Source: Nitrospira japonica
GTDB taxonomy: Bacteria > Nitrospirota > Thermodesulfovibrionia > UBA6902
NCBI GenBank assembly: GCA_020723105.1
Contig: DYJL01000026.1
Span: 1 to 42,814 of the forward strand
Direction: 5' to 3'
Length of the DNA stretch: 42,814 bases
The notes under the pieces were generated by a model. That model was not told where the DNA came from. It worked only from the letters and a program-made list of their open reading frames with translations, and ran no database searches. Each line of letters starts with the position of its first letter. Position 1 is the stretch's first letter. The position numbers and the translations under genes are program-made. Shown piece by piece: positions 14,384-34,350 of this stretch.

Positions 14384-16357
14384 TTAACCTGTTACAAGAT
14401 CAGAAACATTCAGGGCAAAATTGATTGCCGTGAACCCGCGAGCCGGAACCGCAACAAGCGAAAGGCCGTTGTATTCGCCCGCCGCATACGCACTTGGATT
14501 GGCTTCCGTGTATGTGGCGAAGTCAATTGCGTTCACGATTGGCGTGTTGGCGTTGCTCAGAAGCATCCCAAAATTCACGCAACGGTTCGCTGTAGCCTGC
14601 GCACGATTCTGAAGGCGGTTGATGCCGCGTTGATCGTAATACAGAGGATTGATCGCGGTATTGCTGCCATTGATGACCTCGTTCGCCAGATCAATGTGCA
14701 GGGCCGTTTGAACGTAGTCCACGGCATACCAGTAGCTAAAGTCCCGACCATCGCCCGCAACGCCCCATTTCAGCGTTTTGACGTTAGGCAATCCGCCTTC
14801 CGCTCCGGTGTCTGTATAGTTCACATAAGCCGCCTTCAGATTGGTTGCATCCAGAGGGGTGAGCGGGTATGCGACAGATCCGAAAATATAACGGAACGCG
14901 AACGGAGCCAGCTTGTTCGTTTCGCTTGGATTCATCCCCACGCACAGCGCGAACATATCTGCGGCAGGCGATGTCAGGACAGAATCCAAAGGCGCTTTGA
15001 TGCGCATTACCGCCGCTTTCAGCCCTTTGTATTGATCGTAGTTGTTTGTCGAACCCATTGCCGTTGAAGCCGCCGTTTGGAGGTTGTTCACGGTATATGT
15101 GCCGACCCCGCCAGTCCCGGTAAGCAGGCCAGTAACGCGAGTGTTCGCGGTAACGCCAGTACCTTCGATCAGTTGGCCGATTGCAATATGACCTGAAGCG
15201 ATGTCGGTGACTGTGAGTGTAGTTCCGCCGATTGACCCGGTAAAGCTCGCATCTCCCTGAACATGGAAGAAACAATAAAAGCGGGAAGTCAGGCCGGAAT
15301 TCAGGCTCAAGAACGTCAGAAACGTAGGCTCATCGGCCCACGCATCGGGAACCAGAGCCGCGTAGTACGTTGCCGGGTTTGCCAGCAAGAACGCATTCAG
15401 ATCCGCAACGCCGCCAGCCGCCGAGTTTGTGCCGCCGCCAGTCAGGACAGCGCCGGAAACAGTGATTGCGGAGCTTGTCGTTGCCAGAGTATAGGAATTG
15501 CCAGCAACGCCGGGGAGCTTGCTTGTGACCGTGACAACAGCGCCGGAAAGGGCGTAAGACAGCAAGACAAGGTTGACATCCAGAGAGGCCGACAAGAACG
15601 CCAGCAAGCTCGCTGCCGTCAGTTCTTTGGTTGCGCCAACCAGAACTTGATTCCCTGTCGGGCTTGCTGCAACGAATGTGATTGCAGTTCCTTGAATCGT
15701 CAGAGTGTCGGGAGCAACGCCGCCCGTCAGGTTTGCGCCTGAAACAGAAATGTTCACGCCCGTTGCTGCCAGCGTGTAAGCATCTCCGCCAGTGCCGTAA
15801 ATGCGAGCCGTCGCAGTTGTTACCGCAAGGATCGTGTTGTACGTCATCAGCGCAATGTTCACATCGGATGATGCTGCCAAGAATGCTTGCAGGTTTGCGG
15901 CAGTCAGTTCCTTCGTTGCCGCGATCAGGACTTGATTACCAACCGGGCTTGCGTCAACAAAGGTGATCGCCGTTCCTTGGATTGTCAGAGTGTCGCCGTT
16001 CGCGGGTAGCGTATCCAGCGTGATCGTTCCACTCGACTGAACGCCCGGACTAGGGTTTGTGTCCAGCGTGACAGTGCCGCTTGCGCGAGTGCCAGCAGTT
16101 CCAAGTTCAAGGACGCGGATCGCCACGTTCGCTTGATTGTTCGCTGAATAGGTTGTGTATTTTGCTTGTAGTTCGGTTGCAGCATCGCCAGAGCCAAGAA
16201 TGGCAGTGAAATCCGCTTGAGATGCAATCAGGGCGCTTTCGCCTGCACTGAGAGATGATCCGCCTTGAGATACGATCAGCCCGGTACGCTGCAAAGCGGA
16301 AGGCGTTGCGGCGTTTGTTTGTGAAACTAGGATGTTTACAATATCGTTTGCAGACAT
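14384..16357 (-). CDS. Contractile tail sheath protein, DUF3383-like, with inserted modules
   Basis: A 657-residue protein. The N terminus ([20 protein letters not shown]) and C terminus ([20 protein letters not shown]) are conserved parts of DUF3383 sheath proteins. Between them are insertions: two tandem copies of an about 92-residue module (residues 121-213 and 217-308, each starting [13 protein letters not shown]) and one copy (370-436) of the GTGG-x-GTY beta module also found twice in the J-like protein. These probably decorate the sheath exterior. GGAGG precedes the ATG. The protein is longer than the roughly 400-500 residues usual for such sheaths, which the insertions account for. Confidence 0.85.
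15050..15250 (-). repeat. Beta-rich inserted module, copy C (in sheath)
   Basis: Encodes residues about 370-436 of the sheath ([20 protein letters not shown] ... [19 protein letters not shown]). Homologous to copies A and B in the J-like baseplate protein. Confidence 0.85.
15434..15709 (-). repeat. Sheath tandem module, second copy
   Basis: Encodes residues about 217-308 ([20 protein letters not shown] to AVLTGG). More than half of the residues match the first copy and the DNA is also similar, so it arose by tandem duplication. Confidence 0.85.
15719..15997 (-). repeat. Sheath tandem module, first copy
   Basis: Encodes residues about 121-213 ([20 protein letters not shown] to ANLTGG). Tandem partner of 15434-15709. 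Confidence 0.85.
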
Positions 16358-19336: not shown

Positions 19337-20356
19337 TTAGTAAGCCATGGAGAGGATTGAGATGCCTTCAGGACGGACAGACCAGCCGGAAGTGATGCGC
19401 AACTCACTCACAACGTCAATCGCGCCACCGGGCAACGGAGTCGGAATCTCACGCGGAGCGGCCATATCGCACAGCATGATATTGACTGCATCCAGACCCG
19501 GAGCCATCTTCGCAAACTCGTTGGTATTGATGCGAGCGCCTTCCGGCTTCTTGACTTCAGGAACAGTCAGAATGATCGCATCGCGGCCACCTGCGCCCTT
19601 GCCAATCAAGGTATCGTCAAACACCCATTCAACAGAGTCGCCAGCTTCAGCGGCTTGAGCCGATACCACAGCACCGATTGCGGCAGTACCACCGCCCGCA
19701 CGTTGGTAACTTGTGACCTGCACGATGCCTTGATACTCCCATCCGCTCAGAACGCGCTGCGGGCCGCAAATGACGATACGCGAAGGCATGCCCATCTGCA
19801 TAGTGCGCGTTTTCAGGGCTGAGATCTGAGACAGCAGGAACAGGGCCATTTCGCCATTGTCGTAAGTCTGAACAGTGGTGTGGCCGTTGCTATCTGCGGG
19901 CAGTGTGACAGCGGTTGCACCGTGCGTGTTCAGCAAGCCTTCGCCGTTGGCAGGATTGAAGCCATACAGCAACGCTTGACGCATTTGCTGGAAGATACCC
20001 TGACGCATACCCAGACGTTGAGCCTCAACCACGCTCGCGCCCCATTTTCCGAATGCGGCTGTATCGTGGTGATCGTACTCAGCGCGAGTGCGCACCAGAT
20101 AGGTAGGGGTGGAGATCATGCTTGCGGCGATGCTCACGCTAGGCAACTGATTCATCGCAGTCTGACCCGCCGCCGCCTTGGTGCGAATGTCGAACTTTTT
20201 GATGTAGGCGTACAAGTCGCCGTCGCTCAAGCGAGCCATCGGATCGCCCCCGGCCAAGGTGTCGAATGCGCCCGACACTTGGTTGTATTGCAGGATCACT
20301 TCCGGCAGAACATAGGACGGATTTACCTGCACATAGCTGGATGTAAGATTTCCCAT
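19337..20356 (-). CDS. Major capsid protein, DUF2184-like
   Basis: A 339-residue protein of HK97-fold type as judged from DUF2184-like features: VLPEVILQYNQVSGAFDTLA near the N terminus, a central region FGKWGASVVEAQRLGMRQGI, and a C-terminal P-domain-like region ending ITSGWSVRPEGISILSMAY. It forms the shell. Flanked by a cement-like gene upstream and a terminator downstream, it has an AGGAG ribosome site and shows no cleaved scaffold domain of its own. Confidence 0.85.
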   Translation of the reverse strand: MGNLTSSYVQVNPSYVLPEVILQYNQVSGAFDTLAGGDPMARLSDGDLYAYIKKFDIRTKAAAGQTAMNQLPSVSIAASMISTPTYLVRTRAEYDHHDTAAFGKWGASVVEAQRLGMRQGIFQQMRQALLYGFNPANGEGLLNTHGATAVTLPADSNGHTTVQTYDNGEMALFLLSQISALKTRTMQMGMPSRIVICGPQRVLSGWEYQGIVQVTSYQRAGGGTAAIGAVVSAQAAEAGDSVEWVFDDTLIGKGAGGRDAIILTVPEVKKPEGARINTNEFAKMAPGLDAVNIMLCDMAAPREIPTPLPGGAIDVVSELRITSGWSVRPEGISILSMAY

Positions 20357-20374: not shown

Positions 20375-21274
20375 TTAGATTTCGATGATCGCAACTGTAC
20401 CGGAATTGTTCCAGTTTGCGAGGTTATTCACTGCGTCGTAAGAAACGATCTTGCTGTTTCCGACTTCAACCGCCAGCACTTTGCAAGTCAAAGCGCCCAC
20501 GCTCTCGTTCAGCACGATTGTTCCCGAACGTGCGCCAGCCGCATACGCATCAGCATCCGCCGCCACTTGGAAGCTGAAGTTCTGGTTGTCGGTGAACGCT
20601 GTAACAACGTGGTTCGTGTTCAGGGTTGTGATCGCCGCTGTGCCGCCCGTGTCAGTGATGCCAGAGAGGTTGATTGCATCGCCCACGCCGAGGACGTTGG
20701 AAGCCGCTGCCGCCACGACAACGAAAGTCCACAAGCCCGTATCTGGGTCGTAAGCGGAGGTTGTCACCGAAGTCACGGATACGGTTGCACCGGAAGCCTT
20801 GTAGGTTTCCAAACGCTGGTTCAGGAAGTCCCAACCCACTTGCTGAGATACCAGACCGCCGTTCAGAGATACCAGCGAAGGCTCGCAAGCTACAGCGATA
20901 CGCGCACCGGAACCAAGACGATAGAACGGGATGCTTTGGTTTGCGCTAGCGGTAGGAACTTGGCTTTGCGGGGTATTGATGAAGGCATGAGCCTGATTGA
21001 ACACCGCGAAGCCAGTGATGCCAGCCACGTTAGCCGCACGGCCAATGCCGGGGCCAAGGGCGCTGTTTTGCGCGCTTGCTTGCAGGTATTCGGAGATTGC
21101 CACGCCGCCCCACATCGGAAGGGTTTCGGTGTCTTTCAGGATTCCCATTGCGAGCGAGTTGCGAATTGCCGGATCATCCAGAGCGAAGCCCTGAATATAG
21201 CCTTCAGACTGAACGGAAAAACCGCCAGCGGCATTGCCCGTGTTCATGGGCTGAATGGATACAGAATTTGCCAT
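20375..21274 (-). CDS. Capsid cement/decoration protein (Gp24-like)
   Basis: A 299-residue protein just upstream of the capsid gene. The N terminus (GNAAGGFSVQSEGYIQGFAL) and TLPMWGGVAISEYLQ are features I associate with structural cement protein Gp24-type proteins that stabilise HK97-like shells. The second half (150-260) is a Thr/Ala-rich beta domain. Strong ribosome site GGGAG. Assigned with fair confidence from motif memory and gene order. Confidence 0.75.
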   Translation of the reverse strand: MANSVSIQPMNTGNAAGGFSVQSEGYIQGFALDDPAIRNSLAMGILKDTETLPMWGGVAISEYLQASAQNSALGPGIGRAANVAGITGFAVFNQAHAFINTPQSQVPTASANQSIPFYRLGSGARIAVACEPSLVSLNGGLVSQQVGWDFLNQRLETYKASGATVSVTSVTTSAYDPDTGLWTFVVVAAAASNVLGVGDAINLSGITDTGGTAAITTLNTNHVVTAFTDNQNFSFQVAADADAYAAGARSGTIVLNESVGALTCKVLAVEVGNSKIVSYDAVNNLANWNNSGTVAIIEI

Positions 21275-21295: not shown

Positions 21296-23020
21296 TTAGT
21301 GAACTTGCTTGTTGATCTGATGCAAGTAGCGAGTTTGCGCCTTGAATGGTGCAGTCCACGCCGACACATCACCTTGGAACTCGGTAATCTTGCGGCCCGT
21401 TGCATCCTGACGGCTCACTTCACGCAATACGCCTGCCGGGATCGCTGCGGGCTTGCCAGCAACTTCCAGAGCATCGGCATAAATTGTTGCTTCAACCATT
21501 TCCAGAACTGAGGCATCAGCGATTGCGCCGATGTTCACAGACTTTGCGCGAGGGCTATGCACTTGCATTTTGCCAGCGAGTCGTTTTTTGTATGCCAGCA
21601 GGCTTTCGCCCATCATCGGACGCGGAGCGGATTCACCGAATGCGGAATAAACCGAGTCGGCCTTTGCTTGCGCATCTGCCATTTTCGCGGCTTCTTCTTC
21701 TGGCATCGGCTTGATGCCTTGTTCCAGAGCGTCAACGCGCTTGGACATCGCCGCGATTTCCGGGGATGCTTGTGCGTTGTCGAGTGCGGGTTGAGCGATC
21801 TGCTCGCCGGGTTGTTTTGCGGGTACTTCGTCGGCGCTTGCTTGGCCTGCCAGTTCAGCAGTTTCAGCCAGTTCCAGTTTGCTCATGCGGGAGTCCAGAG
21901 ATTTCAGCAGGGACAAGATTTCCCCCATGCCTTCACCGCCAGCGTCTTTCTTCGCTACTTCTTCGGGGTTCAAATCAGCCATGTTGATTTCTCCTTTTGA
22001 GGAACCGTTCGGATCGGCAGAATCCGAGCGGGTTGTTGCCGTCATCTCGACGGGGACGATACCACTTTTCACACCTGACGGTTTCCCGCCTTTATCCCAA
22101 ACACCATGCTCAACAACCGCAAGGTGATCCAGCAATGAGGGCTTCCCCTCAATCAGAAGATGCTTTCCATCCCCCAGATCCATTTTCTCGTTCGCTGCCG
22201 GATCATAGAACACAACAGCGGGCGAGGTACTTGTTTGATGCTCGCTCATTATCTTGGCTGCGGCATCATCGTAAATCTTGACGATACCCCAAACTTCTGA
22301 GCCTTTGATATATGGTAGCAGAGTAGTTCCAATAATCCTATCGGAAAATTCCTCTGAATTCAAGGATGCTGCTTCAGGATGCTCCAAAATCACCGGAAGC
22401 CCTTGGCATCGCATCAGGAATTCATCGTTCAAATACAACTCAGGCTTGCGAAGAACAAACTCATTATGAGCTTGTCGGAATGAAACTCCGGTTCCGGTAA
22501 TGCGCACATCGAACAAGGTGATGTTCCCGTACTTCTGCGGGGATTCTAGCTTTCCGTCATGGATCTCAAGCGCAACATCAAGCTCCGAAGTGTGCGCGGC
22601 ATCGGATCTGAATTCGATCTCAAGAAGTTCGGCAACGCCGGGATGCAGCGGAAGGCTGCGGGCCTCATCAATCGAAGCCCAATGAAATGAATCATGCTCC
22701 GCACTCAGAACCGGATCTTCATCACCGTCATGGTTTGCAATGTAAGTTGTGTAGTCGGCTCCGAACTTGTCTGTTCGGCTGACTTGGGAGAGCGGGCCTT
22801 TGATGTCGAACCCGACTTCCTCTTTGCATTCACGGATCGCCGCCTGCTCTGGCGTTTCACCATCCTCAACGCCGCCACCGGGGAAATCCCATTTGCCACC
22901 GTTGTCATCGCCTGCGGCCCTGCGGATCAACAGAAACTTTCCGGCGTTTAATAGCATCACGCCAGCGGCTTGCTGAAGTGCTGTACTGCTTGCCGAAGAT
23001 CCTTGTTCCTGCTTTTCCAT
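21296..23020 (-). CDS. Nudix hydrolase domain fused to DUF2213 head maturation protein
   Basis: A 574-residue fusion. Residues about 15-140 are a Nudix hydrolase with an intact catalytic box at 49-71 (G-x5-E-x7-REUxEExGU: GGVEDGETPEQAAIRECKEE). Nudix enzymes hydrolyse nucleoside diphosphate derivatives. Residues about 150-285 match DUF2213 (FVLRKPELYLNDEFLMRCQG; DHLAVVEHGVWDKGG), a phage head protein with presumed protease/scaffold role. Residues 300-430 are Glu/Ala-rich, coiled-coil and scaffold-like, and the C terminus is compact. The start at 23020 is chosen because GGGAGG lies 7-8 bases upstream; an ATG at 23038 would add six residues. It follows portal and MuF genes and precedes cement and capsid. 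Confidence 0.85.
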   Translation of the reverse strand: MEKQEQGSSASSTALQQAAGVMLLNAGKFLLIRRAAGDDNGGKWDFPGGGVEDGETPEQAAIRECKEEVGFDIKGPLSQVSRTDKFGADYTTYIANHDGDEDPVLSAEHDSFHWASIDEARSLPLHPGVAELLEIEFRSDAAHTSELDVALEIHDGKLESPQKYGNITLFDVRITGTGVSFRQAHNEFVLRKPELYLNDEFLMRCQGLPVILEHPEAASLNSEEFSDRIIGTTLLPYIKGSEVWGIVKIYDDAAAKIMSEHQTSTSPAVVFYDPAANEKMDLGDGKHLLIEGKPSLLDHLAVVEHGVWDKGGKPSGVKSGIVPVEMTATTRSDSADPNGSSKGEINMADLNPEEVAKKDAGGEGMGEILSLLKSLDSRMSKLELAETAELAGQASADEVPAKQPGEQIAQPALDNAQASPEIAAMSKRVDALEQGIKPMPEEEAAKMADAQAKADSVYSAFGESAPRPMMGESLLAYKKRLAGKMQVHSPRAKSVNIGAIADASVLEMVEATIYADALEVAGKPAAIPAGVLREVSRQDATGRKITEFQGDVSAWTAPFKAQTRYLHQINKQVH

Positions 23021-23024
23021 GCTG

Positions 23025-23042
23025 CTGCCTCCCGGCATGAGC
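23025..23042. repeat. 18-bp dispersed repeat, copy 2
   Basis: Identical to 16421-16438. On the minus strand it carries the ribosome site (GGGAGG) of the Nudix-DUF2213 gene. Confidence 0.8.
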
Positions 23043-23050
23043 GTTAAACT

Positions 23051-23119
23051 TGGAGCGGAAGCGGGGGATCGAACCCCGATTTACACCTTGGAAGGGTGCT
23101 TATGACCAATCACATCCGC
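23051..23119 (-). tRNA. tRNA-Gly(TCC), short D arm, CCA encoded
   Basis: The minus strand gives a 7-bp acceptor (one T-T mismatch), anticodon stem GCACC/GGTGT with loop CTTCCAA (anticodon TCC, Gly), a perfect T arm with loop TTCGATC, and an encoded TCCA end. Only 13 bases separate acceptor and anticodon stems, so the D arm is reduced to about three pairs. It may be functional but is atypical. Confidence 0.8.
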
Positions 23120-23228: not shown

Positions 23229-23299
23229 CTTCCGTGGCAGGACTTGAACCCACAACCATCAGCTTTTGCTGATTGCTCTACCAATTGAGCTACACGGAC
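23229..23299 (-). tRNA. tRNA-like gene with abnormal 6-base anticodon loop
   Basis: The D arm (GCTC, loop AATTGGTA, GAGC) and T arm (loop TTCAAGT) are canonical, and the acceptor pairs over six positions. The anticodon arm is ATCAG, CAAAAG, CTGAT: six loop bases where seven are expected and no T at position 33, so no anticodon can be assigned. CCA is not encoded. Either a degenerate tRNA or a tRNA mimic. Confidence 0.65.
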
Positions 23300-23374: not shown

Positions 23375-24217
23375 TCACCAATTCACAGATAGCCCTTTTT
23401 TTTCGTCAGCTTCCGCTAAAAGCGCATCAATGTTAGATATTACATCCTCACCGGGAGATATGTTTATCCAAGGCTTTTCATGTAACGAAGTTGTATTTCC
23501 GTGGTTCGACACCCTGACTTTTATTGTATTACTTCCCTTTGTTGCTGTTATATAAAAGCTCTGGTCGCTTCCTTGTATTGAAGCCGCCCCTACATCGGAC
23601 ATCCATCCATACCTGTTTAGAGCAGCCAAGGCTGCGCCAGCTCTATATGGTACAGGAGAATGATTATTGTTAATGTCTAGCTTTCCCTTGTCATAATCTA
23701 AGTATCCAAGCAATTCAGCGCGATGCAACGCCTCTTCCGCCGCCTCTTTTTCATCGCCTTTTTTTATTGCATCCGATAATTTGTGTAAGTTTTCTGAATG
23801 TGCGATTTCTCGCCTAACTTTTTGTCTTGCTGACCTCACACGCTCTTCCTCCAGTATCTTTTTCCGCTCTTCCTCGTCCTTTTCTTTGATTTGTTTTTGC
23901 TGCTCTTTTTGCGTTTTTACTTTACCTAATGCGGCATCTGGAATATCAAACTTAACCCCAAATTTTTCCTCCACCTTTTCTTTATTCTCTACAAGGTATC
24001 TTTCGTTTGAATTAAGGATTTCGCCAGATGCAATCTTTTCTTTAATCGCACCTTCAGCCTTCCTGAATTTAGCTAAATCTTTTTCCTCAGAATTAGTTAA
24101 TTCCTTACCATTTTTTGTGCCGAACTTCCCGCTCTTGTCTCTAGGATGGTCGCCCTCTTTGAATTCTGCGTCTGCCCGCGTTTCCGGCTTCTTGAATCGA
24201 ACTATGATCTTTTTCAT
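23375..24217 (-). CDS. Hypothetical protein with long coiled coil, after MuF gene
   Basis: A 280-residue protein. An N-terminal motif EGDHPRDKSGKFGTKNG (about 21-37) of the DHPRD-x-x-G-x-F type is often seen at junctions of phage head proteins and toxin-like domains. Residues 40-150 are Lys/Glu-rich coiled coil (VKTQKEQQKQIKEKDEEERK). The C-terminal 100 residues are an ordered domain (GWMSDVGAASIQGSDQSFYI). It is AT-richer than its neighbours. No catalytic motif is recognised; it could be an injected protein. Strong ribosome site GAGGGTGAG. Confidence 0.7.
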   Translation of the reverse strand: MKKIIVRFKKPETRADAEFKEGDHPRDKSGKFGTKNGKELTNSEEKDLAKFRKAEGAIKEKIASGEILNSNERYLVENKEKVEEKFGVKFDIPDAALGKVKTQKEQQKQIKEKDEEERKKILEEERVRSARQKVRREIAHSENLHKLSDAIKKGDEKEAAEEALHRAELLGYLDYDKGKLDINNNHSPVPYRAGAALAALNRYGWMSDVGAASIQGSDQSFYITATKGSNTIKVRVSNHGNTTSLHEKPWINISPGEDVISNIDALLAEADEKKGLSVNW

Positions 24218-24218
24218 C

Positions 24219-25016
24219 TCACCCTCGTTTAATGGATGCGCGGCCTTTATCTGTCAGCATTTCATCTGGCAGATCCCGCAAGTTGTAAAGGTACTTATAT
24301 CGGCACTGGCAGTAAACGAACTCAGCGGGCATTTCAATATCATCCGTGTATTGATGCCCGTCAAGTTTCATCAAGCCGTTCTGCATGGCCCAATTATCCC
24401 GGATCACGAAGATTTTACCATCACGTTCGGCGTGATCTGGCCTTGCGTTGTATCCAGCCGCCCGGAAGTGAGATCTCCACACGGCTGCAATTGCGCCTGT
24501 TTCTGTGGCCGTGATGTTCGATAGCGATGCCTTGAACTTCCCCGCCTGATCTATCATCACCCGGCGCTCATCATACGGAAGTGACTTGAGCGCCTTCTTG
24601 ATGGATGCGTTCTCTTCCTTCCTGTCCACGGCTTCGCTTCCGCCGATAGGGATTGAAGTCGCCCAACCGGAGAATCGGCGCATCGTCCGGGCAATCATCT
24701 CTTCCCGGTTCAGCTTTATCAACTGCGCTGCGGCCATGATCCTGCGCTGAAGCTCGCGTTGCAACTTGGGTGCGATCTGATTGAACTTCCATGCCGGGAT
24801 ATTGTGGGCGCGAAGCAAACCGCCCTTGGTGACTTGGGCGGTATAGATCGAAGTGAGAGTGCGCTTCAGGTTGTCGGCAGTAATGGCCGTGTGACCTTCT
24901 GCCGCCCCCATCAATTCGCGCTGCCACCGGGCAAGGCGTTCTTCACTGTCGAACCCGTGCGTTTCAAAGTCTGCAATGGCACGGCGTAGAACGTCGCTGA
25001 ATGTCTGGATAGACAC
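24219..25016 (-). CDS. MuF-type minor head protein
   Basis: A 265-residue protein between portal and head-maturation genes. The C-terminal region has the conserved MuF/SPP1 gp7 features: WRSHFRAAGYNARPDHAERD, then PAEFVYCQCRYKYLYNLRDL. Such proteins bind the portal and enter the head, aiding morphogenesis or DNA ejection. The N-terminal half is helical. GTG start at 25016, two bases after the portal stop. Confidence 0.85.
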   Translation of the reverse strand: MSIQTFSDVLRRAIADFETHGFDSEERLARWQRELMGAAEGHTAITADNLKRTLTSIYTAQVTKGGLLRAHNIPAWKFNQIAPKLQRELQRRIMAAAQLIKLNREEMIARTMRRFSGWATSIPIGGSEAVDRKEENASIKKALKSLPYDERRVMIDQAGKFKASLSNITATETGAIAAVWRSHFRAAGYNARPDHAERDGKIFVIRDNWAMQNGLMKLDGHQYTDDIEMPAEFVYCQCRYKYLYNLRDLPDEMLTDKGRASIKRG

Positions 25017-25018
25017 GA

Positions 25019-26449
25019 CTAGCCCACCTCTTGTATTACGCCGTCCTGCGGCCCATCCTGCCCCGGCATTCCGCCTTGCTGTGGCGGTTCGTATGCCTTC
25101 AGCGCATCAATGTCCAAGTTCAGCGGGTTTTGAAACATTATCTTGTTGTCGTTGATGTTATCTGCGGCCCATTCAATCAATGTCGCCTTGTTTTCTGGAT
25201 CGAGATGCGGAGCCAGCTTCTCAACCATCTGTATCAGTGCATCAAGTTTGACTTTCTCCGCGTCTGCTTTGTCGCTCTCAGGTTCTTCTTGGAGCGAGGG
25301 CCATGTTGCGGAAAAGTCATTTTGCCAGCGATAGAACGCCTGCGTATAGCCGATATTGCCGAACTCATTGGGGAATTGCACCTGAATGGTTTCATAGAAC
25401 TCCTTTGTCCACGCCCTGCGCATTACGATCTTGTCAAAGAAGTCGTAAAGCGGAATCATCTCTTTCCGTATGGATTCGATGTACTGCATGGTTGACTTGA
25501 AATCCTCTGTGCCATTCGCCAGCACTGAAGCATATCCGTTTGCCAACAACAGTTTGGGCGGCATATTGGCGCTTGAGGCAATATCCTCAATGATGTTGGA
25601 TCGAGCGGAGCCGATTGCTGTATCCGTATTGTTCAGGTTCAGTGTCTCAATATCTTCTTCCGGGGAAATGGAGATCACGTTTCCTTGCGTTGCGTCCTTG
25701 AGCAAGTCGCGCTTCTGCCCCATTGCGCGGCTCATCAGGTTATCCACAATTGAACCCGGCTGCTTCATCTTCGCAACCAGAACGCCTGCCTTCACAATCA
25801 CCATATCGTTCGTAATCATGGATTGAACGAAAGACTTCAGCGGGAACAAGGCTCGCTGAAATACTGAGCGGCCCACGAAGCCGAAGGCGGAATTGGTGTA
25901 GGAAAGATAAACGGGCGCTTCATTCAGCACAACGCACGTTCTGGATCGGTGATACGGCCTGCCGCCCACTGTAACCGTCCCGGCTCGCTGGAACGCCGGG
26001 GAGTTGGGGTTCTGAGAAAGCACCAAACTCCCGGCAGTATTGAGTGGATCGAACACATTGATCGCAAGGGCGGGATCTGTGAGTTGTTCGGGCGTGATTG
26101 GCCTGTCGGTAGGAACGCCGTCAAGCAATAGCGCCACGGCTGCGATCCCGTAAACGCGCTTCAGGTGCATTGCGTTGGCAATATACTCATCGCACTTCAG
26201 GGCATCCCATTCCTTCAGGAAGGCATCACGAACCAGATCCTCCGGCCCGCTTGGAATGGAAATATCTCGGCGTTGACTCATCGCAATCGTAACCGGAGCC
26301 TCAACCATCTTTGCGCCCATAGGGTGATAGACATAGATCGTCTTGCAAAGCTGATAGCTTGGATCGTCGCCCGGCTGGATGTCATCAGCCATAAGCAATT
26401 GCTGAAGCGAGTTGCCCGCCACTGATCCGTTTATCGAAATATCAGACAT
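25019..26449 (-). CDS. Portal protein, DUF1073-like
   Basis: A 476-residue protein directly after the large terminase. Conserved portal-type regions include NVFDPLNTAGSLVLSQNPNS and SSANMPPKLLLANGYASVLA, then YIESIRKEMIPLYDFF; the set fits DUF1073 portals. Twelve copies form the DNA channel. The ATG at 26449 is preferred over a TTG at 26467 because GGGAGAAG lies 6-9 bases upstream. C-terminal 30 residues Gly/Pro/Gln-rich. Confidence 0.9.
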   Translation of the reverse strand: MSDISINGSVAGNSLQQLLMADDIQPGDDPSYQLCKTIYVYHPMGAKMVEAPVTIAMSQRRDISIPSGPEDLVRDAFLKEWDALKCDEYIANAMHLKRVYGIAAVALLLDGVPTDRPITPEQLTDPALAINVFDPLNTAGSLVLSQNPNSPAFQRAGTVTVGGRPYHRSRTCVVLNEAPVYLSYTNSAFGFVGRSVFQRALFPLKSFVQSMITNDMVIVKAGVLVAKMKQPGSIVDNLMSRAMGQKRDLLKDATQGNVISISPEEDIETLNLNNTDTAIGSARSNIIEDIASSANMPPKLLLANGYASVLANGTEDFKSTMQYIESIRKEMIPLYDFFDKIVMRRAWTKEFYETIQVQFPNEFGNIGYTQAFYRWQNDFSATWPSLQEEPESDKADAEKVKLDALIQMVEKLAPHLDPENKATLIEWAADNINDNKIMFQNPLNLDIDALKAYEPPQQGGMPGQDGPQDGVIQEVG

Positions 26450-26463
26450 TCTTTCTTCTCCCG

Positions 26464-27756
26464 TCAATATCCATCACTGTTACCAAGCCCGATGCTGATG
26501 CCATAGGTAAACGTATCAAGCAAGTCATCAACCTGATTCTTGACACCGATCCTGAATCCGCACACTTGAGCAATGAAATGGTTTCGCGTTACGCCCTTGT
26601 AGTTTATCACCTTATCAAAGGCATAGAAGGACAGCTTGACTTCCTCTCGGTGGACATACCCGGAAACTGAGATCGCTCGCGCATCCTTGCCCGCTGCCGT
26701 CAGCTTGCTATCAATCGCCCTTCCGGGAAGCCCTTTGCGCTCCGCCTGCTGAATCAGGATCGTTCCGGTCTGTTTGTCCTCAATGAATGCCCCCAGAGAT
26801 CCGTGCCGGGCCTTGTACTGCGCGGCCAGTTCTTCGCATCGCCTATACACTCCGGGAATCCAAGCCTCTTGCAAGTCGCCTTTGATCTGGACTAGATCCC
26901 AATCCAACACAACCATCCGATACCCGTGGAACTTGGATACTGCGAAATATGTAACTGCCGTGCCGTCATGCTCGCTTCCGTCCTTCACTGCGGTATCAAC
27001 CACGGCAAAAACAGCGTCCGGGTTCATCGTCGGAATAACGGGCTTCCCATGCTCAAGCATCTTGTCGAGCGCGAAGAACGCCGCCCCCTTCCAGTCAACG
27101 AAGTTGGCAAGGTACTCTTGGGAGTACACCAAAGGCGCGTTCTCCCGCTCTAGCTTCTCGATCTCGGATGCCGGGAGGTGCGGGTTCGTGTGCGTCGGGG
27201 CATGGTACTCAGCGAACCCAAGCGAAGGATCATTGCACAACTGCCAAAAGAAGTTGTCTGGATCGTCGCCTGCCGGGGTGGAAGCGGCCATTGCCGAACC
27301 GCCATAGTCGAGCAATGAGGGCTTGATTGACTTCTCCCATATCTCGCGCATATCCGAACCAGCAAACGCCACCTCATCCAATAGCGCCTTGTGGTACTTC
27401 CGTGAGCGGCCTGCCCTTGGGTTGTTCAGTGTCCAAAAGTCAATTCTTCCCCCGGTTATCGTGCGGATCACCCCGTCAATCTTGGATGCCTTCCTGATTA
27501 CCGGATAAAGGATCTCATGGATCTCTTCATACGCTTCGGCCTGAATCTTGTAGTCGGGTGTAAACCAGCCGATTGATCGCCCCTTGGCGGCCCCATCTCC
27601 CGCAATTGTCTTGAGCAAGTCGGTCTTTCCCCATCGCCGCCCACATCGGACAACCTTGAACCGCTTCTTCATGCGATATACCGCCGCCTGCCCCGGATGA
27701 AGGGTCGGCAGAACGATTGGCTCGCGGGAACCTATGCGCCTAGTCGTATAGCTCAT
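26464..27756 (-). CDS. terL: Terminase large subunit
   Basis: A 430-residue packaging motor. The ATPase domain has Walker A RCGRRWGKT (about 38-46) and Walker B KALLDEVAF (about 123-131), with a C-motif-like AASTPAG. The nuclease domain has FAVVDTAVKDGSEHDGTAV (about 249-267), IEDKQTG and a C-terminal DDLLDTFTYG acidic site. It translocates and cuts concatemeric DNA. It overlaps the small subunit gene by 17 bases and is followed by the portal gene. Confidence 0.95.
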   Translation of the reverse strand: MSYTTRRIGSREPIVLPTLHPGQAAVYRMKKRFKVVRCGRRWGKTDLLKTIAGDGAAKGRSIGWFTPDYKIQAEAYEEIHEILYPVIRKASKIDGVIRTITGGRIDFWTLNNPRAGRSRKYHKALLDEVAFAGSDMREIWEKSIKPSLLDYGGSAMAASTPAGDDPDNFFWQLCNDPSLGFAEYHAPTHTNPHLPASEIEKLERENAPLVYSQEYLANFVDWKGAAFFALDKMLEHGKPVIPTMNPDAVFAVVDTAVKDGSEHDGTAVTYFAVSKFHGYRMVVLDWDLVQIKGDLQEAWIPGVYRRCEELAAQYKARHGSLGAFIEDKQTGTILIQQAERKGLPGRAIDSKLTAAGKDARAISVSGYVHREEVKLSFYAFDKVINYKGVTRNHFIAQVCGFRIGVKNQVDDLLDTFTYGISIGLGNSDGY

Positions 27757-33444: not shown

Positions 33445-33544
33445 CAAAAGCCTCCGGTAGTATCTGCATCATCCCCAAGACAACCAGCAATCGCTGATCG
33501 TCTGGAAGGTCGAGCAGGTTGAATAGGATCGAGGCGGTGGTCAT
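33437..33544 (-). CDS. 35-residue small protein
   Basis: MTTASILFNLLDLPDDQRLL then VVLGMMQILPEAFDD; amphipathic helical, no membrane segment of full length. The ATG overlaps the upstream stop (CTATGA) and its end contains the ribosome site of the next gene, so it may serve in coupling as well as coding. Function unknown. Confidence 0.5.
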   Translation of the reverse strand: MTTASILFNLLDLPDDQRLLVVLGMMQILPEAFDD

Positions 33545-34350
33545 AGTGCGCACTCGCAAGGTAGCGATTCCGTCTCTTCATAAATCTTTACAACTTTGCG
33601 CGCCTGCGCCCAAAACGTCTGATGTTTTGCTTTTTCTGTGCAGATAACTCCGGCCTTCTGCATGATTGCAAACCTGCTTTCAATGTCATCAAGATATACG
33701 GGTCCTGTTTTATCGTGGTGAATTGCGTAGCCGATTTCTTCTTCTGCCCACTTCGCTTTCAGCCAAATATCAGGCCGCGTGCAGTACACAATATACCAGT
33801 GCTGCCAGCCAGCCTTTAGGCATCCTACACAGTTTCCATGCTTGAACACACCGTAGGTGCTAGGCCGCGAAATTCCAACATCCTCGGTTGCAGTGATGGT
33901 TCTGTTCTGCCAGATTGCGGGAAAGTCAACGCGATAACCTATCGCCGCCATCATGCCGATTCTGCGCTGCATCCGGTCAGTCTCCGAGGGGTCGAACCCG
34001 TAGTAGCAAATAGCATCCTTGTCTGGGACATTTTCTGCCAACCAATCACGGAACGGCTCAGTCTTTAATCTGGCAGTGCATAACTCTGAACCGTTACCAA
34101 CCTTGAATGCCTGCGCCTCTACGCACACATCGAACTGGTCTTGCTGAGCATTGCGCCTGTTTGCGTAGGTTACTGGTAGCCCAAGATAGTCCGCAACTTC
34201 ACGCTTGAACCGTTTGATGTCGGCATCCTCAACACTAAAGTGCATGTCGTGGTTCAGCAAAACAACATCGGTCTTGCCGAATCTGCGGACAACTTCGATT
34301 GCCGCCAGCGCAGATGTGTGGCCTCCGCTGTAGCAAACAACATGCTTCAT
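33541..34350 (-). CDS. PP-loop ATP pyrophosphatase, PAPS reductase-like
   Basis: A 269-residue enzyme of the adenine nucleotide alpha hydrolase fold. PP-loop YSGGHTSA (residues 7-14) binds ATP; the second region NGSELCTARLKTEPFRDWL is typical of PAPS reductase/DndC-like phage proteins; CVGCLKAGWQHW (about 173-184) and the CEC end may bind an iron-sulfur cluster or metal. Such enzymes activate substrates by adenylation or reduce PAPS; in phages the substrate is usually unknown, with DNA or tRNA sulfur modification possible. It starts after a 122-base gap with GGGAG upstream. Confidence 0.8.
   Translation of the reverse strand: MKHVVCYSGGHTSALAAIEVVRRFGKTDVVLLNHDMHFSVEDADIKRFKREVADYLGLPVTYANRRNAQQDQFDVCVEAQAFKVGNGSELCTARLKTEPFRDWLAENVPDKDAICYYGFDPSETDRMQRRIGMMAAIGYRVDFPAIWQNRTITATEDVGISRPSTYGVFKHGNCVGCLKAGWQHWYIVYCTRPDIWLKAKWAEEEIGYAIHHDKTGPVYLDDIESRFAIMQKAGVICTEKAKHQTFWAQARKVVKIYEETESLPCECAL

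Follow-up and report, generated by a model that had tools for sequence, protein, structure and literature searches.

A Nudix domain fused to a predicted capsid assembly protease and scaffold in a contractile-tailed phage, a candidate head-loaded enzyme

The window (the whole stretch of DNA analysed, 42,814 bases) is one whole contig and belongs to a phage with a contractile tail, as judged from sheath and baseplate family matches. A gene on its minus strand (21296..23020, stop codon included) encodes a single protein of 574 residues in which a Nudix hydrolase domain, a DUF2213 domain and a scaffold-like region follow one another in one frame, as the earlier note had read it. The DUF2213 part, there called a head-maturation protein, is a predicted capsid protease by fold as well as by sequence. 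The placement of the enzyme in the prohead, also proposed in the earlier note, follows from the fusion to a protease resembling gp21 of phage T4 plus a scaffold, and is likely, being well supported by the anatomy of the protein (domains and model). Its further suggestions, that the enzyme may persist in the mature virion, be removed by proteolysis or reach the next host and act there on nucleotide signals or RNA caps, would be compatible with this anatomy. The explanation towards which we lean, with some reserve, is that the gene encodes a head-assembly polyprotein whose Nudix domain is head-loaded cargo released into the next host.

Both the fusion and this main interpretation are already in print, as far as the accessible parts of three papers show. 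Phage Nudix domains fused to MuF, to the portal or to a capsid serine peptidase were reported in 2022 with the proposal that they are packaged in the head and injected, molecules of the NAD/ADP-ribose type being the proposed targets (PMC9503650); a cytoplasmic site of action for phage Nudix enzymes, the premise of the earlier note, is thus not the published view. Fusion partner and proposed logic in the available text of that paper are the same as for the present protein, whereas its Nudix domains fall mostly into NudE-like or NadM-like clades and the present one scores nearer to MutT/NudG. The accessible part of PMC8770471 lists the NUDIX-DUF2213 pair among Pfam architectures, and that of PMC5512222 (2017) describes the wider class of polyvalent and MuF-fused effectors, which are joined to head proteins for delivery. 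The fused protein is also an existing database family, PHROG 6216, to which no function is assigned in PHROGs. The present computations cover domains, predicted folds, conservation, purifying selection, an internal start, the scattered absence of the Nudix domain and additional N-terminal domains. What appears to be new is the predicted nested scaffold start, the scattered Nudix absence and the further effector-like N-terminal domains.

Architecture of the fusion protein

The longest open reading frame (21296..23038, minus strand) comprises 580 residues counted from the first ATG. The ATG at 23020 was preferred because a Shine-Dalgarno sequence GGGAGG (23028..23033, minus strand) lies 7 nt upstream of it, and residue numbers are counted from this codon. 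Neither a stop codon nor a frameshift, which the earlier note had named as evidence against the fusion, separates the Nudix and DUF2213 parts in this gene. Pfam searches returned NUDIX with an E-value of 5.8e-23 and DUF2213 with an E-value of 1.5e-4 (22.2 bits, cut-off 22), and PHROG 6216 covers residues 23-576 of the 580-residue frame (E-value 1.4e-142). The full-length model, computed from a 46-row alignment, has a mean pLDDT of 81.4 and a pTM of 0.53; in it the Nudix domain and a second domain are predicted with confidence, and the scaffold-like tail is resolved by alignment and model into a low-confidence linker, a long helix and, at the C-terminus, a conserved block.

The Nudix domain (residues 16-138; 22607..22975, minus strand) is defined by Pfam and by structure. 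The consensus of the Nudix box is GX5EX7REUXEEXGU, and the box of the present protein (residues 49-71; 22808..22876, minus strand), which is conserved in relatives, contains G49, E55, R63, E64, E67, E68 and G70. It lies where the earlier note had placed it; the word 'perfect' used there is slightly strong, with a Cys at residue 65, which we take to be the hydrophobic position of the consensus. Ten-residue means of pLDDT range from 87 to 97 over residues 21-130, and the model matches MutT-type hydrolases, the best being 3grn (Z 18.6 over 130 residues). A chance occurrence of the box was ruled out by the E-value of the domain and by its fold. Regarding subfamilies, NCBIfam models of the PRK08999, MutT and NudG types scored 49-57 bits and NudE 25.7 bits, all under their cut-offs; the nearest profiles and solved sequences are those of MutT, NudG and other NTP pyrophosphohydrolases.

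The DUF2213 domain (residues 144-320; 22061..22591, minus strand) is supported by Pfam, alignment and structure. Folded alone it reached a pLDDT of 90.6 and a pTM of 0.86, and the best match of this model was the capsid assembly protease gp21 of phage T4 (Z 10.7, 130 aligned residues, rmsd 2.7). The two proteins share this fold and differ in extent: gp21 is listed with a solved chain of 165 residues, whereas the fusion protein carries additional Nudix and scaffold parts. Herpesvirus capsid proteases came next with Z 5-8, scores that unrelated MCE domains begin to reach as well, and the named viral structure neighbours were DUF2213 proteins, prohead proteases and some others (including one tape measure protein). 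His214, Ser264, Ser266 and His299 are invariant in the 46 rows and the pair Asp298-His299 is conserved; the pattern H..S[TASM]S..HxA occurs at 161 of 164 related loci, and PHROG 530 (head maturation protease) was matched by 46 of 53 DUF2213 members. At the sequence level, no relative of solved structure was retrieved with a profile of the protease/scaffold part, and hhalign comparison of the protease profile gave nothing against the protease of phage Bm1 (probability 0.6) and a weak match to that of Bcep781 (38.5).

Head operon and fusion in related phages

The gene order on the minus strand is terminase large subunit (26464..27756, PHROG match), portal protein (25019..26467, Pfam and PHROG matches), MuF-like head morphogenesis protein (24219..25016, phrog_324, with a Pfam match below the cut-off), a 280-residue protein (23375..24217), two tRNA-like genes, the Nudix fusion, a 299-residue protein (20375..21274, phrog_6268, no function given) and the major capsid protein (19337..20356, phrog_264/6671, with PF09950 just below its cut-off). 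The 280-residue protein, located between the MuF-like gene and the fusion, yielded no PHROG, no NCBIfam and no above-cut-off Pfam match; it contains the motif HPRDKSGKFG. Motifs of this HPR..GKF type are also present in N-terminal extensions at 7 of the 164 related loci (five contigs), a recurrence by which the motif may mark head cargo, and the 280-residue protein is a possible second cargo protein.

The two tRNA-like genes (23229-23299 and 23054-23119, minus strand) occupy the gap directly upstream of the fusion gene, and both exceed the Rfam cut-off for tRNA, the latter only under a more permissive search. The former has an anticodon loop too short for assignment by ARAGORN; the latter, missed by ARAGORN, has a reduced D arm and, by reading, a TCC anticodon. 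ARAGORN found no tRNA at this position in 12 relatives. Elsewhere on the contig, the tail sheath gene (657 residues, 14384-16357, minus strand) has an internal stretch which matches tail-fibre and unknown-protein families, and a gene resembling phosphoadenosine phosphosulfate reductase is present at 33541-34350 (minus strand, phrog_424).

Isolate phages with the same fusion include Shewanella phage vB_Sb_QDWS, Klebsiella phage Chronis, Pantoea phage PdC23 and Yersinia phage 29.18, in which the protein is annotated as hypothetical protein (vB_Sb_QDWS), Nudix hydrolase (Chronis, PdC23) or glycosyl transferase (29.18); Rac-SA53 and an Actinobacillus phage carry the protein without the Nudix part. 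In a tblastn search of phages 525 records matched, the best single place covering 53% of the query and none reaching 80%, probably because the linker is poorly conserved; kinship to the fused phage proteins over the whole length is visible in the alignment. Single-protein scans with the fusion protein found no relative among viral contigs and only one match, to the Nudix part, among genome contigs. Within 47 genomes of the same order, matches beyond the window itself were confined to the Nudix region; two matching long open frames (830 and 836 residues) were found there, one of them (L015) without a strict box.

When viral contigs were scanned with the fused alignment, 438 relatives were obtained, and the protease/scaffold part alone yielded 539; the best 80 of each were fetched. 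Among the best 80 of 539, 66 loci were fused, three had a separate Nudix frame upstream and 11 had no Nudix domain. The full set of 164 loci matching the protease, a number which includes near-copies and duplicates of one contig from two scans and leaves out the window, divides into 141 fused, seven separate and 16 without Nudix; fetched relatives were ranked by similarity to the fused query, which may favour fused ones. The dereplicated set of 73 loci comprises 62, three and eight, respectively. 'Without Nudix' means throughout that none was present in the upstream sequence retrieved for the locus. The search for the fusion in relatives suggested in the earlier note thus recovered the same one-frame architecture in isolate phages and at 141 of 164 loci, a recurrence by which the fusion is neither chance nor artefact. 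Isolate phages and contigs from many metagenomes alike carry the fusion, which rules out an assembly or frameshift artefact.

Loss of the catalytic glutamates, which the earlier note had named as counter-evidence, was not encountered: E-x2-E-E is present in 141 of 141 fused relatives and the strict box in 135, the remaining six departing from it at single residues. Invariance of the box in the 46-row alignment is partly by construction, as its rows were picked for a strict box. The median dN/dS was 0.078 for the Nudix domain (range 0.025-0.771 over the 23 of 29 pairs with finite values, the pair L153/L174 reaching 0.77) and 0.070 for the protease. Conservation of E-x2-E-E and the low dN/dS indicate that the catalytic domain is kept by selection, and the Nudix hydrolase looks active as far as its sequence tells. 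They also make it very improbable that the domain binds nucleotides without cutting them and is kept for structure, an idea for which nothing direct speaks beyond the six relatives lacking single box residues.

In four closely related phages (L081, L092, L095, L096) an in-frame TAG or TAA with an ATG directly after it lies between Nudix and protease, and the last Nudix segment (LHPG) remains on the protease side of the stop. These stops were considered as evidence against the fusion and rejected as such; because the C-terminal LHPG segment of the Nudix domain stays downstream, they are read as gene fission, which is preferred, short of proof, over reinitiation or readthrough. Separate production of the protease, without the Nudix domain, from an internal start was likewise rejected: the junction in the window has no in-frame start with a ribosome-binding site, and of the 62 fused relatives 11 show such a combination there, a share close to the background of 15%.

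The position of LHPG at these stops and gene breaks hints at contact between the domains. Together with the direct N-terminal attachment and the short junction, it fits a Nudix domain that acts within the prohead during assembly or DNA packaging, for instance as a pro-domain controlling the protease or in clearing nucleotides, and does not outlast maturation, being destroyed or expelled beforehand. This is considered quite unlikely, since 11 of the best 80 of 539 loci keep the protease without Nudix, which is therefore not needed for protease control in general, and since the conserved catalytic residues would be superfluous in a mere pro-domain.

On the protease tree, in which 27 of 70 inner branches are open, the tips lacking Nudix are scattered (seven changes for eight rows, a value as low as this being reached in 120 of 500 shuffles). 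Agreement between the Nudix tree and the protease tree is only partial (Mantel 0.52, against at most 0.22 on permutation), with a correlation below 0.3 in 11 of 63 rows. Taken together, scattered absence and partial agreement suggest that the Nudix domain is dispensable and perhaps exchanged, as expected of cargo. By hand count, dS of the Nudix part exceeds that of the protease more than twofold in 10 of 23 finite pairs, a comparison biased by the choice of pairs with similar proteases; the excess may reflect exchange of the Nudix stretch between related phages.

Predicted nested scaffold gene

An internal Shine-Dalgarno sequence AAGGAG (21991..21996, minus strand) stands 8 nt before an ATG at 21982 (residue 347), from which a nested scaffold gene of 228 residues (21296..21982, minus strand) is predicted by a family test and by natural splits. 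The start lies past the GVWDK motif, which marks the end of the protease, by 41 codons in the window and mostly by 18-27 codons in relatives. A first test allowed 14-30 codons and ATG, GTG or TTG in 48 dereplicated rows including the window. Here 44 of 48 rows qualified, the distant site of the window itself being scored as a miss, compared with a mean of 23.2 and a maximum of 31 in synonymous shuffles and with 71 of 568 other in-frame ATGs. In a second test the range was widened to 14-45 codons after the site at 41 had been seen, with ATG or GTG as start; a Shine-Dalgarno sequence with a start was found in 69 of 71 usable loci among the 73 dereplicated relatives and in 156 of 1053 comparison stretches of equal length. 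Synonymous shuffles gave a mean of 39.3 and a maximum of 49 of 71, a high background which indicates that the signal owes much to the amino-acid sequence. A set of 27 dereplicated loci was retrieved once the pattern had been noticed. Of these, 24 qualified in the original range, against a shuffle mean of 11.8 and maximum of 19, and all 27 in the wider range, with shuffles averaging 14.6 and reaching at most 21.

The scaffold is a separate frame at four of the 164 loci (L101, L107, L108, L111), with Nudix still on the protease, whose frame ends 21-56 residues past the start of the GVWDK motif. In L101 the separate scaffold gene begins at the internal site, and the two misses of the second test, L108 and L111, are both loci with split scaffold genes. 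A fifth short frame (L103) reaches the contig end.

Nested protease-scaffold genes are known from lambda C/Nu3 and from herpesvirus UL26/UL26.5. The conserved Shine-Dalgarno sequence and start after the protease suggest a nested scaffold gene of the lambda C/Nu3 type, with the protease followed in frame by the scaffold and an internal start for the scaffold alone, as in both known systems; the present gene differs in the enzyme placed in front, and its internal start is a prediction. In lambda, according to the accessible part of PMC3224144, C, Nu3 and the portal form an initiator structure. No description of a nested scaffold start in the Nudix-protease family was found in a literature search that left most subscription journals outside its scope, and the available text of PMC9503650 makes no mention of one.

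Proposed role of the Nudix domain

The preferred reading, that of a head-assembly polyprotein, assigns the Nudix domain to the N-terminus as cargo, a protease of the gp21/assemblin type to the middle and the scaffold to the C-terminus. The internal start, judged from its conserved ribosome-binding site, would yield scaffold alone in larger amounts, and the rarer full-length copies would enter the scaffold core via the shared C-terminus, bringing protease and Nudix inside the prohead. During maturation the protease would cut itself and the scaffold free while Nudix remains in the head. It would then enter the next host with the DNA; the nucleotide derivative hydrolysed there would most likely be a signal of host defence or stress, in line with the proposal in the accessible part of PMC9503650. 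The cargo reading is supported by the position in the head operon, by a Nudix domain on a second head protein and by other domains at the same N-terminus. In Bcep781 a related Nudix domain is present at the C-terminus of the portal, and the separately annotated protease is, on reading, without Nudix. The two profile matches are separated by a short gap (median four residues), and no cleavage site was identified between Nudix and protease. A narrow literature search, which included PdC23 and the accessible part of PMC12629751, found no virion proteomics of a relative.

As the Nudix domain scores nearer to MutT/NudG than to NudE, a defence signal can be named as substrate only tentatively, and there is room for a different role, in which the enzyme cleans or adjusts the nucleotide pool in the manner of MutT/NudG while still in the producing cell's cytoplasm, at a late stage of infection, the fusion merely tying its amount to head production. 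Besides the closest profiles and solved sequences, the free Nudix gene within the head operon of Bm1 and at three of the best 80 of 539 loci agrees with such a role. It is nevertheless held to be unlikely, as attachment to two different head proteins (the protease here, the portal in Bcep781) would be unexpected, and as the full-length protein should be a minor product if the internal start is used.

Other domains also occur in front of the protease. A single open frame in L109 (5251-7710) carries PBECR1 (E-value 4.4e-9) and another in L143 (2894-5410) an ADP-ribosyltransferase (E-value 3e-18), each before Nudix and head protease; L144 has the same N-terminus as L143. A stretch with HExxH precedes Nudix in L111 by eye, in which Pfam found nothing, and in L078 an unrelated N-terminal stretch replaces Nudix. 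Two short N-terminal modules were observed as well: SEKQHRAMEAAAHGHSTLGIP..., conserved before Nudix or protease at 31 of 164 loci (e.g., L004, L042, L068, L094), and MPLEQGSS... at 12 of 164. The joining of effector and head protein is shared with the polyvalent and MuF-fused effectors, and PBECR1 and ADP-ribosyltransferase, which belong to that class, occur in the present relatives also; those effectors dock on MuF or portal, whereas the present family uses the N-terminus of the protease (PMC5512222, accessible part). In the proteins with an ADP-ribosyltransferase, the Nudix partner could balance or process the ADP-ribose products of the delivered enzyme. A broader proposal, put forward as speculative, is that phage heads have, in the protease N-terminus, a third docking place for cargo in addition to MuF and portal, that the nested start keeps the fusion rare and draws it into the prohead, and that the protease frees changeable effectors (Nudix, ADP-ribosyltransferase, PBECR1, peptidase-like) for injection.

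If the cargo reading is true, phages load enzymes into their particles via the head-protease gene itself, and enzyme delivery becomes testable by simple virion proteomics. The predicted nested start would provide a mechanism by which such a fusion is loaded at low copy without blocking head assembly.
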